A stretch of DNA of 23,743 nt from a virus. The position numbers and the translations under genes are program-made. Of the stretch, positions 4,131 to 8,832 are shown one piece after another (the first letter of the stretch is position 1; every line of letters begins with the position of its first letter). The stretch lies in the IMG/VR virus record IMGVR_UViG_3300025122_000161, positions 1 to 23,743 of that record, one strand, 5' to 3'. The notes under the pieces are model-generated. The model was given only the letters and a program-made list of their open reading frames with translations, was not told where the DNA came from and did no database searches.

Positions 4131-5291
4131 CTAATCTCCTCTCAGGCTATCTGACAGGGCCTCTATTTCTATGTATGATTCACTATCTATGTCGGGGTCT
4201 TCAGATGAAAATTTCTTCACCATCGCAGCAGCTAAAAGATCATCTATATATTTTCCATATTCATCACTCTCTACTAGCTGATAAAATTCATTCTTTCTAA
4301 ATTTCTTTTCTACTACTGACTCTCCGGTACTTGTATCTATAACAGTAAGTGTTTTCCACGACCCTGTTCCTGAAAGAGATATCTCGTTATGATTTATAAT
4401 CTCTGCGCCGTGCTTTCTCAAAAGGTCAAAGATCTGTTCGTGCTCCCTTATTCCAACACCAAAGTGAATCTCAAAGTTAGCGGTTCTAAACGGAGCAGCT
4501 ACCTTGTTCTTAATAGTTTTTGCTGAAACGTGAATGCCAATCACATCATCACCATCTTTTATCTGCTGACCAGCACCCAGTTTAATCCTTGTAGATGCAT
4601 GAAATGGAATAGCCTTTCCGCCAGGAGTTGTTGTGGGATCACCGAACATCACACCTATCTTCATTCTTGTCTGATTTAATATCACAAATAAAACACTTTG
4701 GTCGCCGATGACACCTGTTATCTTTCTCATTCCCTTGGAAATCGATCTTGCCTGGAGTCCTATAGACTCCTTGTCATAGTCACCCAGTAGTTCAGCTTTG
4801 GGTGATGATGCTGCAACAGAATCCCAAATTATTGTAACAGGAACATCTTTGTTCATGCCTTTTGACTTGAGAATCACAGACTCAGCAACCTTGAAGACCT
4901 CCTCTGTACAATGTGTATCCACATACACAAATCTATTTGATACATCAACTCCTAACATTTGTAGATTTTCCACTGATGTTGCATTTTCTGTATCTATATA
5001 GACAGCGATTCCTCCCATTTCCTGTGTAGATCTTGCTATCTGTGTCGCTATGTGTGACTTTCCAATAGATGGTGGGCCAAATATCTCTACTATACGGCCC
5101 TCTGGAAGACCACCATTTCTTCTATTGGAGCAAATGTAATCTAAAAGTTTTGATCCAGTTGATATCCAGCGCTTTACGTGTGTGGGAGACTCATCCTGAC
5201 TAAGATTATATGCTACTCTTGACCCATGTTCTTTGTTTAGAGATAATATTAACTCAGACGTAAAATCCTCTATTTCGTTCTTTTTTGACAT
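4131..5291 (-). CDS. uvsX: RecA/UvsX-like strand-exchange recombinase
   Basis: This recombinase forms filaments on single-stranded DNA and drives homologous pairing, recombination-dependent replication and repair. The 386 aa contain Walker A GPPSIGKS (72-79), the catalytic Glu in YIDTENA (E102) and Walker B TIIWDS (153-158). The region KESIGLQARSISKGMRKITG (174-193) and the L2 loop NQTRMKIGVMFGDPTTTPGG (206-225) read very close to bacterial RecA. The C-terminal part, about residue 330 on, is acidic and diverged, as is usual for RecA-like tails. The ATG at 5291 follows AAAGG with 6 bases spacing. It is separated from the SSB gene by a terminator, so it probably has its own promoter. It partners functionally with the SSB upstream. 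Whether it is better called RecA or UvsX needs a phylogeny; the recombinase function is very likely. Confidence 0.93.
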   Translation of the reverse strand: MSKKNEIEDFTSELILSLNKEHGSRVAYNLSQDESPTHVKRWISTGSKLLDYICSNRRNGGLPEGRIVEIFGPPSIGKSHIATQIARSTQEMGGIAVYIDTENATSVENLQMLGVDVSNRFVYVDTHCTEEVFKVAESVILKSKGMNKDVPVTIIWDSVAASSPKAELLGDYDKESIGLQARSISKGMRKITGVIGDQSVLFVILNQTRMKIGVMFGDPTTTPGGKAIPFHASTRIKLGAGQQIKDGDDVIGIHVSAKTIKNKVAAPFRTANFEIHFGVGIREHEQIFDLLRKHGAEIINHNEISLSGTGSWKTLTVIDTSTGESVVEKKFRKNEFYQLVESDEYGKYIDDLLAAAMVKKFSSEDPDIDSESYIEIEALSDSLRGD

Positions 5292-5407: not shown

Positions 5408-6181
5408 TTAGTCTGACATCAAGTCTGCAAATGCATCATCGATACTCTTGTATCCCGACGCTGTTCCCGTTTGATCGGATTCAGATGTCGAGACTCTCGG
5501 TGATTCATTATTAGAATTATCTGCGTCGCTTTCTCCAAGCCAGTCATTGATGATCTTAGAGAGTTCATCATAGCTCTTGCATTGAAAAATTCCACTCAGG
5601 TCAGGAATAGAGCTAAACCACTCCTGTGCCTTCTTAGAATTGTCTGACAATGAAGACTGCTTTCCTCGCGGCCTAACCTCTGTCATTGCCCACTTCTTTC
5701 CAGGCTGCTTGTTACAGCTAACCTTGACGTCGCGACCAGTTTGCGGGTCTGTTATATCACCGTAGTCGTCATCTAGCATTAGACCAAGAAGTGACTGATA
5801 TACCATCTTGCCGAATCCCCACACCTGAACACCCTTGTCTTCCTCTCCGCGAACAATTACAGGCGCGTAGGTTCGCATCTTTGGATGGAGCTTCTTTTCT
5901 AGCTCATATGATTCCTTTGAGCCCTCTTCGCGTAACTTGGTGATAAGCTCTTGTATCGGATCAGGATCTCCAAATTGGTTTGGAGCTAAAAGACCTCGCT
6001 CCTTGCCGATGTTGTAATAAAACCACAGCTCCTTAAAGGGCTGCCCATCATTATCTGGAAATGAAAGGAGGCGAACTGTGTGTTCCTCTCCCTCTGTGGG
6101 TCTCCACGTTACCGACCGATTCTTTGTATTCCCGCTTAATCGATCTAGCTTCTTACGAATTGCGTCAAAATCAACTGCCAT
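5408..6181 (-). CDS. gp32: Single-stranded DNA-binding protein, T4 gp32-like
   Basis: The product coats single-stranded DNA at the fork and should interact with the recombinase and polymerase. The 257 aa show a basic N-terminus (RKKLDRLSGNTKNR, 9-22), then a gp32-type OB-fold core with PFKELWFYYNIGKERGLLAPN (48-68) and VWGFGKMVYQSLLGLMLDDD (120-139). YGDITDPQTGRDVKVS and a Ser/Asp-rich linker follow, with an acidic C-terminal tip (SIDDAFADLMSD) that serves as the protein-interaction tail in this family. Only two cysteines are present (about C156 and C201), so the Cys3-His zinc site of T4 gp32 is not evident. The ATG at 6181 has GGAGGT 5 bases upstream. It is monocistronic by signal: a long leader in front and a strong terminator behind. 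It is slightly shorter than T4 gp32 (about 300 aa). Confidence 0.88.
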   Translation of the reverse strand: MAVDFDAIRKKLDRLSGNTKNRSVTWRPTEGEEHTVRLLSFPDNDGQPFKELWFYYNIGKERGLLAPNQFGDPDPIQELITKLREEGSKESYELEKKLHPKMRTYAPVIVRGEEDKGVQVWGFGKMVYQSLLGLMLDDDYGDITDPQTGRDVKVSCNKQPGKKWAMTEVRPRGKQSSLSDNSKKAQEWFSSIPDLSGIFQCKSYDELSKIINDWLGESDADNSNNESPRVSTSESDQTGTASGYKSIDDAFADLMSD

Positions 6182-6287: not shown

Positions 6288-7808
6288 TTATCTTGCTTCT
6301 TTTAAAATCTCTCTAATAAAATCTCTAACATTATTCTCAGCGATTCCTATAGATTGATGAAAAAAATCTTTATCTATAATATCTTTGGGTGGCTCATAAA
6401 GGGCGCGATAAAAATCACCTAGCTTTATAAATGCATTTCTAGGATTTTTTATCACTGCTAGCAAAATTGATCCGCCATTTTCTCCAAGACTAGTTAACTC
6501 TGACTCAGCTTCTGGGCCAGCGCTATTAACCATTTCAATAACATCTTCAATCTCCTGCGATCCTGATGTTGCCATTGTGAAGATCCATCTCTCTAGGGGA
6601 ATCATCTCTGCAAGAAATCCAAGAGCTGCTGTCGTTATATTAGCTCCGGTCTCAGTTGCGAGCACGCCGACACCTGCAGCTGCAAGTCCAGCGGCAGCTA
6701 AAACAGAATCAATTGATTGAATAAACGTCAACAAGAGACTTTTAAGATCTCCAAGAACCTCATCAAAGATATCCTTTAGTGATTCAGTATCGTGAAGGTG
6801 AATGCTTAATAGTATCTCCTCCCATGCAGCGCTATCTTCATGCTCTATGGCTTCAACAAACTGTGACTCACTAATTCCAAGCTCTGCGACAAGATCATCT
6901 GTATTATTTCTTAGCTTCGAGACAGTGTAGGTCGCTATAAAAGTTCCAATTACTATATCTAAGCCTGGAATTGCCATTCCTACAGATTTTAAAGCAGCAG
7001 GAACCAGTTTTAAAGATGCCTTTCCCAATCCTTCATTGATGTAATAACCTCTTCTTTCATATGACATTATCTCGCTCATAGTCAATATATCATCTGGATC
7101 ATCAAATTGGTCAACAACATCCACATCTATATCTGGTATCTCTTCTATCTCTTCTTCCTCTTCTTCAAATGGCGTGACGCAAACGTCATTGTCGCTTAAC
7201 AGCGCACCATAAAAGAGCCCAAGCTTAGAAACAAGAGAATATTCGCTATGTTTTCCTTTTTCTATGGGAGATAAAAGATCTGCGTGATCTGGTCCTACAG
7301 ATTGAGAAATTATATTCTTAACTTCTAAGCTGTCTCCTGTAACTTTTGATAACAATAAGAGAAGTGAGGCTGGAGTTATGTCAATGACAAGAGCAAGTGT
7401 TGTCGTCACCTTTGTCGGATCAACTATCGCCTTGATTAAATTTGCAACGAGGCTCTGCAGAGAAGACACCATAGCCTTAAGCGCTTTAAGCATTTTCAAC
7501 CTTTTGTTCTCAGGCATAGAACAAACTGCCTTGATAAACTCAGCGTAATCAGCATTATCAAGTCTAGCTGCCATGGCCAGCTCTGGTAGGCCTTGCGACT
7601 CAAGTATGTCATCAATTTTATTGACATGCCTGAAGAATGCTGCAGCATCCCACGCGGCGACGGCTGCAGCTAGCGTATCTGATGCTACCTGAGATGGATC
7701 GATATAATCTAAGAATGTTACAGCGAGGTCGACTATATTTCCAGCTGTTTTGGATATCATTCCTTCTGAAAGATATGACTCATTAAACTGGTCGATTAAT
7801 CGTGGCAT
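6288..7808 (-). CDS. Unrecognised 506-aa protein with hydrophobic segments and an acidic linker
   Basis: I do not recognise this protein. It opens with an amphipathic N-terminus (LIDQFNESYLSEG). An Ala/Leu-rich helical region holds a hydrophobic stretch at about 136-157 (TLALVIDITPASLLLLLSK). A very acidic run at about 216-240 (EEEEEIEEIPDIDVDVVDQF) acts as a linker. YERRGYYINEGLGKASLK precedes a second hydrophobic stretch at about 272-294 (GMAIPGLDIVIGTFIATYTV), and a third, Ala/Gly-rich one lies at about 354-402. The C-terminus is basic (FIREILKEAR). The two halves each begin with a similar short tag (ESYLSEGM / YYINEGLG), hinting at a two-domain or duplicated layout. It could be a virion-internal or membrane-interacting protein; lysis proteins seem too small to compare. 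The ATG at 7808 has only a weak GAGA upstream and lies just inside a hairpin foot. Confidence 0.75.
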   Translation of the reverse strand: MPRLIDQFNESYLSEGMISKTAGNIVDLAVTFLDYIDPSQVASDTLAAAVAAWDAAAFFRHVNKIDDILESQGLPELAMAARLDNADYAEFIKAVCSMPENKRLKMLKALKAMVSSLQSLVANLIKAIVDPTKVTTTLALVIDITPASLLLLLSKVTGDSLEVKNIISQSVGPDHADLLSPIEKGKHSEYSLVSKLGLFYGALLSDNDVCVTPFEEEEEEIEEIPDIDVDVVDQFDDPDDILTMSEIMSYERRGYYINEGLGKASLKLVPAALKSVGMAIPGLDIVIGTFIATYTVSKLRNNTDDLVAELGISESQFVEAIEHEDSAAWEEILLSIHLHDTESLKDIFDEVLGDLKSLLLTFIQSIDSVLAAAGLAAAGVGVLATETGANITTAALGFLAEMIPLERWIFTMATSGSQEIEDVIEMVNSAGPEAESELTSLGENGGSILLAVIKNPRNAFIKLGDFYRALYEPPKDIIDKDFFHQSIGIAENNVRDFIREILKEAR

Positions 7809-7809
7809 G

Positions 7810-7856
7810 GCGTCTCTATCTCATTCCATCATGATGTGTGTATCTTAAAGAGACGC
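7810..7856 (-). repeat. 8-bp inverted repeat (hairpin) just before the 506-aa gene
   Basis: Arms GCGTCTCT (7810-7817) and AGAGACGC (7849-7856) enclose 31 bases. On the mRNA the hairpin begins at the last base of the TAG that ends the -1-frame extension and finishes one base before the ATG of the 506-aa gene. It could act as an RNA processing or translation-control element at a gene boundary. There is no U-run of terminator type after it. Confidence 0.5.
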
Positions 7857-8131
7857 TATTTCTTCTTCCTCTTCTTTCTCTTTGATGTGTCGAATCCAGC
7901 CGTACCGGCTGCAAATTTCTTCGCGGTGTTAACAAGGCGTTGAGGTTCTCCCGGATTAACGAGACTTCCGCCGCCAAAAAATTTAGCATTTTGCTTAGCA
8001 CGTTTTGCATAGTCTGGGCCAGTGTCCATCGGACCTGTCCATCCTCTGATGCTGTTTCCTGTGAGTGTCGAAATCTCATCCTCTCTTTCACCCTCTTCAT
8101 CATCCTCTCCGTCTAGTATCTGTTTTTTTTT
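7856..8131 (-). CDS. -1-frame C-terminal extension of the 239-aa gene (frameshift product or separate small ORF)
   Basis: This frame has no usable start codon near its opening; a TGA lies 3 codons before the A run at 8123-8131, and the frame then stays open to TAG at 7856. Read as a continuation across the A run, it gives an acidic linker (QILDGEDDEEGEREDE), then ISTLTGNSIRGWTGPMDTGP, AKQNAKFFGGGSLVNPGEPQ and a Lys/Arg tail (TSKRKKRKKK). The codons have the purine-rich first positions of true coding sequence. With the upstream ORF the fused product would be 325 aa. The first internal ATG (8029) would give only a 57-aa protein with a poor Shine-Dalgarno. I favour this frame over the overlapping 95-aa ORF starting at 8103, which has a decent GGAGAGG but an unnatural Arg-rich composition and CGN codons. 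Function unknown. Confidence 0.6.
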   Translation of the reverse strand, partial: KKKQILDGEDDEEGEREDEISTLTGNSIRGWTGPMDTGPDYAKRAKQNAKFFGGGSLVNPGEPQRLVNTAKKFAAGTAGFDTSKRKKRKKK

Positions 8132-8832
8132 ACAGATGATTCAAAGATAGCCGCTATATCTCTTCTAATTATTCGTCTTAGGGCCTCTTCCTTGATTAGC
8201 TTATTTCTATCCTGATAGGATGTAACTCCTCCATCTGTCTTGTATGCCACAGCGACATCGCCATAGTCATCTAGCACATCAAACTCACTTTCTTCTGAGT
8301 CCTTAGAAACAACTACAGGAACATTTCTATATTCATAACCCCCAGGAAGTGGAGGATGATAAGATCCATAATCAGGATAGAGTGACTCCCGTATAAACGC
8401 TATAACGTCATCTATCTCTTTTTCATCTATGTCACTAACATTCATCTCTTTAAGCCCTTTAGTTTTAGGTCTGAGAACTTTGAAATCCTTAGGAAGTTTT
8501 CTGCTTCTTATCGGTATCTCTCCGTAATAAGTATCCTCTAGCTCAGGTTCTTGCTCAGGAAACATTGGGCCATCTTCATAATCTTCATATCCTAGATTAA
8601 CTCTCGCGAGGTATGATGAAAATGTGGAATCTGCTCCTTGGCTTGGAGTTCCCACATTGCCATGGTGATAGGGTATCTTTCCTCTACCTATCTTCTGCTT
8701 ATAGTCATCACCGCCCAGCATGCCACCAGCTGCTGGAACTGCAATGCCTCGGCCGGACCAAACACCATCTTGTGGTTGATTTACGGTTGTAGCATACGTT
8801 TTCTTAAATTGCTTGGATTTTAGACGAGCCAT
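8113..8832 (-). CDS. Unrecognised 239-aa phage protein ending at an A9 run (likely 5' part of a 325-aa gene)
   Basis: Function is not recognised. The N-terminus is basic (MARLKSKQFKKTYATTVNQ). A Gly/Pro-rich, low-complexity stretch follows (VWSGRGIAVPAAGGMLGGDD and on). Next come an acidic Tyr/Glu region (GYEDYEDGPMFPEQEPELED), a middle domain, and a basic helix (KLIKEEALRRIIRRDIAAIFESS, about 208-230). The last codons are AAA AAA AAC AGA TAC TAG, so the frame ends three codons after a nine-A tract. The composition looks like a disordered or virion-associated protein rather than an enzyme. The ATG at 8832 lacks a clear Shine-Dalgarno: upstream is AT-rich (AGAATATTTAATAGC) and 26 bases separate it from the HD gene. 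It may well be only the first part of a longer protein (see the extension to 7856). Confidence 0.75.
   Translation of the reverse strand: MARLKSKQFKKTYATTVNQPQDGVWSGRGIAVPAAGGMLGGDDYKQKIGRGKIPYHHGNVGTPSQGADSTFSSYLARVNLGYEDYEDGPMFPEQEPELEDTYYGEIPIRSRKLPKDFKVLRPKTKGLKEMNVSDIDEKEIDDVIAFIRESLYPDYGSYHPPLPGGYEYRNVPVVVSKDSEESEFDVLDDYGDVAVAYKTDGGVTSYQDRNKLIKEEALRRIIRRDIAAIFESSVKKNRY
8123..8131 (-). other. A9 slippery tract within the 239-aa gene
   Basis: On the minus strand the reading is GTA AAA AAA AAC AGA, which contains the X XXY YYZ heptamer A AAA AAC in frame 0. Slipping back one base leads to CAG ATA CTA GAC and the open -1 frame. Such tracts allow ribosomal -1 frameshifting or polymerase slippage, and are also where sequencing drops a base. 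Confidence 0.6.

Follow-up and report, generated by a model that had tools for sequence, protein, structure and literature searches.

A conserved A-run and frame break in a phage gene near gp32: the C-terminal tail is most likely added to part of the protein by slippage, with RNA polymerase as the likeliest agent

The DNA analyzed here (the window) is 23,743 nucleotides long and corresponds to an IMG/VR virus record of a marine phage (IMGVR_UViG_3300025122_000161). It contains tail sheath and baseplate-hub genes, plus a replication block with the order polymerase A, HD-domain-like gene, gene X, a 506-amino-acid open reading frame (ORF), gp32, RecA/UvsX, exonuclease, and DnaB helicase. Gene X lies on the minus strand (8113..8832), where frame 0 encodes 239 amino acids and ends with a TAG at 8115-8113. 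The protein has a conserved N-domain (GVWSGRGI...GGDDYKQKIGRGK) and a conserved C-domain (FIRES...YKTDGGV...EALRRIIRRDI). The gene for the gp32-like ssDNA-binding protein (5408..6181, minus strand) was used as a positional anchor; in relatives, it comes immediately after gene X and its tail.

In frame 0, the 3' end of gene X reads TCT GTA AAA AAA AAC AGA TAC TAG. The A9 run within the codons GTA AAA AAA AAC (8123..8131, minus strand) is the candidate slippage site and the sole A/T run of at least nine in the 23.7-kb window; in relatives it varies from A8 to A12. Beyond the run, the -1 frame stays open for 88 codons (8122-7859) until a TAG at 7858-7856, and one extra A in the run would yield a 325-amino-acid product, as computed from the window sequence. 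The first-pass annotation of this DNA had reported that the minus-strand ORF 8832-8113 ends right after the run and that the -1 frame is open to 7856; both observations were confirmed, with exactly nine A's and 88 codons. It had also placed a hairpin exactly at the tail stop, and an 8-bp stem is indeed present there (7810..7856, minus strand), between the tail stop and the ATG of the 506-aa gene, ending just before the latter (MFE -13.8, z -2.2; 6 of 200 shuffles were equally good). At approximately 265 nt past A9, this stem is probably unrelated to slippage.

The -1 tail (7856..8122, minus strand) has the sequence QILDGEDDEEGEREDEISTLTGNSIRGWTGPMDTGPDYAKRAKQNAKFFGGGSLVNPGEPQRLVNTAKKFAAGTAGFDTSKRKKRKKK. 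It consists of an acidic linker, the stretch DEISTLTGNSIRGWTGP..., the motif FFGGGSLVNP, which the nearer relatives share, and a Lys/Arg-rich end; among the tryptic peptides of the window-phage tail are EDEISTLTGNSIR and FFGGGSLVNPGEPQR. More generally, relatives have tails with an acidic linker, a DE(Q/A/F/I)S...AG...PLG core, and a Lys/Arg-rich end. The core protein encoded by gene X is about 520 aa long in most relatives and includes a helical, partly hydrophobic middle domain. This domain is absent from gene X in the window, L003, and L004 (L numbers denote individual loci). In the window it is found in the downstream 506-aa ORF (6288..7808, minus strand), residues 257-478 of which resemble the middle domain of relatives such as L013 (44% identity over 230 columns).

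Querying IMG/VR with the 239-aa protein yielded 21 loci, a search with an N-domain alignment added a few more, and gp32-anchored searches gave approximately 155 loci, many of which are repeats of the same contigs. No tblastn match to gene X was obtained in 50,697 GenBank phage records, and no relative was found in a scan of 84,980 bacterial and archaeal genomes. In Microcystis phage Mel-JY01 and Flavobacterium phage immuto, which have the nearest GenBank gp32, the gene preceding gp32 has no recognizable tail. In the first set of relatives, nearly all readable ones combined a long A-run immediately ahead of the frame-0 stop with a homologous tail that is read in a different frame. A run of at least nine A's occurs at the site in every locus of 19 relatives, and only one other A/T run of this length was detected elsewhere in those loci. 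Since a first-order model predicts 0.14-0.25 A/T runs of nine or more per locus, the presence of the run at the site in 19 of 19 is not due to chance.

When near-identical contigs are counted once, 24 distinguishable IMG/VR lineages need a -1 shift to reach the tail: the window, L003, L004, L005, L006, L008, L011/L053, L013, L014, L016, L020, L022, L040, L041, L044, L064, L066, L127, L136, L137, L140, L207, L055, and L174. As these lineages share ancestry, their number does not equal a number of independent events. Their runs are A8 (one lineage, L137), A9 (twelve), A10 (six), A11 (four), or A12 (one), and the frame-0 stop lies 0-23 nt past the run. The first A of the run falls on codon position 1, 2, or 3, depending on the lineage, while the -1 relation to the tail is constant. 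In L055 and L174 the run is located inside the tail domain, a second position of the site. In two further lineages, L018 (A9) and L045 (A10), it is the +1 frame that encodes the tail; they could be one-base assembly errors, as one more base restores the usual arrangement. The first-pass annotation had proposed aligning relatives and had named an absence of -1 similarity in homologues as the outcome that would speak against its reading. Such similarity is present: 24 lineages keep both run and break, some others are continuous, and all have a homologous tail. Judged by this comparison, the frame break at the A9 of gene X is a genuine feature kept by two dozen phage lineages. A separate single-base difference was seen in L011, where the tail (4447-4677) is broken relative to the otherwise identical L053 with its intact tail; both have the same A11.

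Selection was compared on the two parts of the gene. In nine pairs, pN/pS of the tail in the -1 frame was 0.24-0.56, and that of the C-domain in frame 0 was 0.05-0.34; by this measure, purifying selection acts on the tail in its -1 reading. In L019 and L020 the -1 extension measures 357 aa; its first part is a GDSL-type hydrolase (Pfam PF13472, E 9e-16), and the tail comes after it. The hydrolase domain has GDSN close to its beginning and DGIHLN close to its end. This GDSL/SGNH hydrolase (L020:4620-5690, and likewise in L019) comes directly after the A9 and is accessible only via a shift.

A 95-aa ORF in frame 0 (7816-8103) overlaps the tail and was considered as the conserved product. This candidate was rejected: in the closest relative, L003, the frame stops after two codons, and early stops are also found in L005, L016, and L044. 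It is open in the window and four relatives, and the resemblance among these ORFs is what the overlapping tail would produce. In these five cases (window 7816-8103, minus strand; L004, L008, L013, L014), frame 0 is open for 87-98 codons past its stop, which directly follows the A-run and is the only frame-0 stop in that region. The tail gave an Rfam hit (sR52) of 20.5 bits, with the cut-off at 50, which was attributed to chance.

Another explanation would be that a missed A, caused by sequencing or assembly, splits a single 325-aa gene. Homopolymers are error-prone, and relatives fused in frame do occur. However, the break recurs in 24 lineages with differing phases and flanks, and near-identical contigs with their own SNPs carry the same break. 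Identical runs were found within each of five such groups (window/L002; L006/L007/L009/L181; L012/L013/L156/L160; L016/L017; L167/L168/L169), with the reservation that many near-identical contigs may stem from related samples and are thus not fully independent. In a sixth group, L146-L149, the run (A9/A11) is changed by substitution and the frame is kept. Because the break is conserved, the tail is under purifying selection, and SNP-bearing contigs keep the frame relation, base error and simple pseudogenization are both very unlikely. Error as such, which the first-pass annotation had kept as an option, now has almost negligible probability, given the recurrence of the break across lineages.

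The same contigs bear on phase variation at the DNA level, whereby replication would alter the length of the run and any one phage would produce a single form, short or long. Replication is prone to slip on homopolymers of this length, and the frame relation between tail and core does change on the gp32 tree. Nevertheless, run length is constant within the five SNP-bearing groups, the sixth retains its frame, and the -1 relation predominates where a mix of frames would be expected. We therefore regard phase variation as highly improbable.

We propose instead that gene X is a two-product gene in which RNA polymerase slips on the A9, adding or losing A's. Unslipped transcripts would encode the 239-aa form, ending at the TAG at 8115-8113. 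If a transcript gained one A or lost two, the -1 frame would come into phase and the transcript would encode the 325-aa form, with its acidic linker, conserved WTGP...FFGGG core, and basic end. Two features expected of a slippage gene are present: a homopolymer of at least about nine A/T sits where the frames join (nine A's in the window and A9-A12 in 23 of the 24 lineages), and both the run and the shifted extension are conserved in homologues. It was previously reported that selection against slippage-prone runs is evident at length nine in many bacterial genomes (PMC1088944). Moreover, only 49% of the upstream Lys codons of gene X are AAA, so that the unbroken run is kept at the nucleotide level.

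Ribosomes, like RNA polymerase, can slip on such a run, and the main competing explanation is a programmed -1 ribosomal frameshift on an in-frame A AAA AAA or A AAA AAC, as in E. coli dnaX. The X XXY YYZ heptamer usual for such events is present: an in-frame slippery A AAA AAN was found in the window and at the sites of the relatives examined. In addition, the -1 direction applies to 24 of the 26 shifted lineages, L137 (A8) comes close to a plain ribosomal site, and -1 ribosomal shifts are common in phage genes for tail and capsid proteins (PMC5009743). The long run would offer ribosomes several slip positions without the need for a stimulator. Stimulators, usual but not strictly required, were in general not found. 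The 20 nt preceding the sites showed no Shine-Dalgarno (SD) element, and z-scores of 70-nt downstream folds scatter around 0, the exception being L044 with a stable fold (z -3.45), which would suit a ribosomal shift. Ribosomes require six A's at an A AAA AAG site, and six or seven suffice, whereas nearly all runs here have 9-12. Furthermore, two lineages need +1, and both shift directions and both default frames occur among relatives. Considering the runs of 8-12 A's, their variable codon phase, and the lack of an SD element or general downstream structure at these sites, we favor RNA polymerase slippage as the best explanation of the long form and consider it probable; a ribosomal shift is unlikely, but it is the strongest of the alternatives. 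Taken together, the tail of gene X is most likely added to part of the protein through slippage on the A-run, with RNA polymerase the likeliest agent. We infer that the slip is that of the polymerase and that each form is produced and required, and likewise their ratio.

A lambda G/GT-type tail assembly chaperone, which we also considered, was rejected, as gene X is located between the HD-domain-like gene and gp32 in the replication block and not directly before a tape-measure gene among tail genes.

Some relatives have the core and tail in a single frame. In six fused lineages (L021, L050 and its kin, L068, L070, L071, L072), an A9-A12 run is read through into the tail, and the other frames stop quickly, after 1-5 codons in -1 and 5-14 in +1. 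Such stops are partly expected from composition, since a GAT-GAA linker contains TGA when read in -1. Other fused relatives have no run (L054, L059, L060, L067, L073, L086, L109, L134, L166). The first-pass annotation had taken the 325-aa protein to be the true product, with a short 239-aa form if recoding is programmed. The -1 tail shared by homologues supports the long form, and the 239-aa form is probably a real product as well, because fused lineages often keep the run and both of their other frames stop fast. On their own, the fused lineages that have a run do not discriminate between polymerase and ribosome, as the short form of E. coli dnaX arises by a ribosomal shift (PMC3711429).

In more distant phages, the gene preceding gp32 encodes a small protein of roughly 90 residues that shares the tail core and has an LRExIR-like beginning. 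Such stand-alone, one-frame tail-core genes of approximately 90 aa are located just upstream of gp32 in L093, L094, L084, L121, L082, L187, and others. On the gp32 tree, the frame types switch several times, with many of the forks being weak. A simple reading, which we infer, is that the core and tail originally shared a frame, with gain, inversion, and loss of the run and break coming later.

Several known systems resemble gene X. Citrobacter rodentium tssM1 and Yersinia tssM3 undergo transcriptional slippage on an A-run, which is A11 in tssM1 (PMC4256274). As in gene X, the run lies shortly before the frame-0 stop, and ribosomal stimulators are lacking near the site; there are two length variants, as proposed for gene X. 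Slippage yields the long form in one of the two genes and the short form in the other, which is comparable to the shifted and fused lineages described here. In contrast to tssM1 and tssM3, gene X is a phage gene that encodes an unrelated protein in many lineages. Thermus thermophilus dnaX has an A9 with transcriptional slippage late in the gene and gives two products (PMC1088944), an arrangement like that proposed for gene X; its standard frame leads to the long form, whereas that of the window gene leads to the short one. The six fused lineages with A9-A12 resemble Thermus dnaX and Yersinia tssM3 (PMC1088944, PMC4256274).

Among phages, the Ig-like extensions, together with T7/T3 gene 10, place a C-terminal module on a fraction of a protein, as gene X may do, and relatives use -1, +1, or in-frame fusion indifferently, as is the case here (PMC5009743). 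These extensions were reported as ribosomal, whereas gene X has no Ig-like match and its site is a bare A-run. The methyltransferase CPt10_0091 of a Campylobacter phage has a poly-A frame break for which slippage was suggested as a rescue (PMC2853527); unlike gene X, it is a single proposed case without a described conserved family. In the papers searched, programmed poly-A slippage was described for bacterial genes and insertion sequences, and tailed phages were credited with ribosomal frameshifting.

Gene X had no match in Pfam, PHROGs, PDB, or BFVD, and a fold search was also empty. The AlphaFold model of L013 was poor (pLDDT 53), and its shape was not used. Our guess is that the tail serves as a sorting or DNA-binding module on a fraction of a helical, partly hydrophobic protein, possibly carried in the virion. 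That gene X might be virion-carried or ejected is likewise a guess, prompted by the charged tail, the hydrophobic helices, and the fact that one phage has the hydrolase; a role in replication would fit its position next to gp32 equally well.

We lean slightly towards the following overall picture. In a tailed-phage family found only in metagenomes, RNA polymerase slippage on A9-A12 would act as a frame-indifferent switch by which a fixed share of the copies of one protein receives a conserved tail, accompanied in one phage by a GDSL hydrolase. The form made without slippage would have changed repeatedly, and one pair of lineages would have the site inside the tail. If this is true, a bare A9-A12 kept over wide divergence and in both default frames would provide a natural experiment on the gain, loss, and inversion of recoding. 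There is also a warning for annotation: because of their position beyond a stop codon, the tail and, in one phage, an entire enzyme domain would escape ordinary gene callers.

Other features of these genomes were observed. In L003, a second A9 opens the RecA/UvsX-like gene (4987-5000; ATG TCA AAA AAA AAT). Upstream of gene X, L031 (3458) and L035 (3461, plus strand) have small genes with the start MRLKPSTLKRIIQEELQRA. Finally, stretches similar to this start (LKRIIxEE, LREYIRxxIRE) are found repeatedly at the ends of proteins, both in these phages and in relatives from GenBank (L129, L131).
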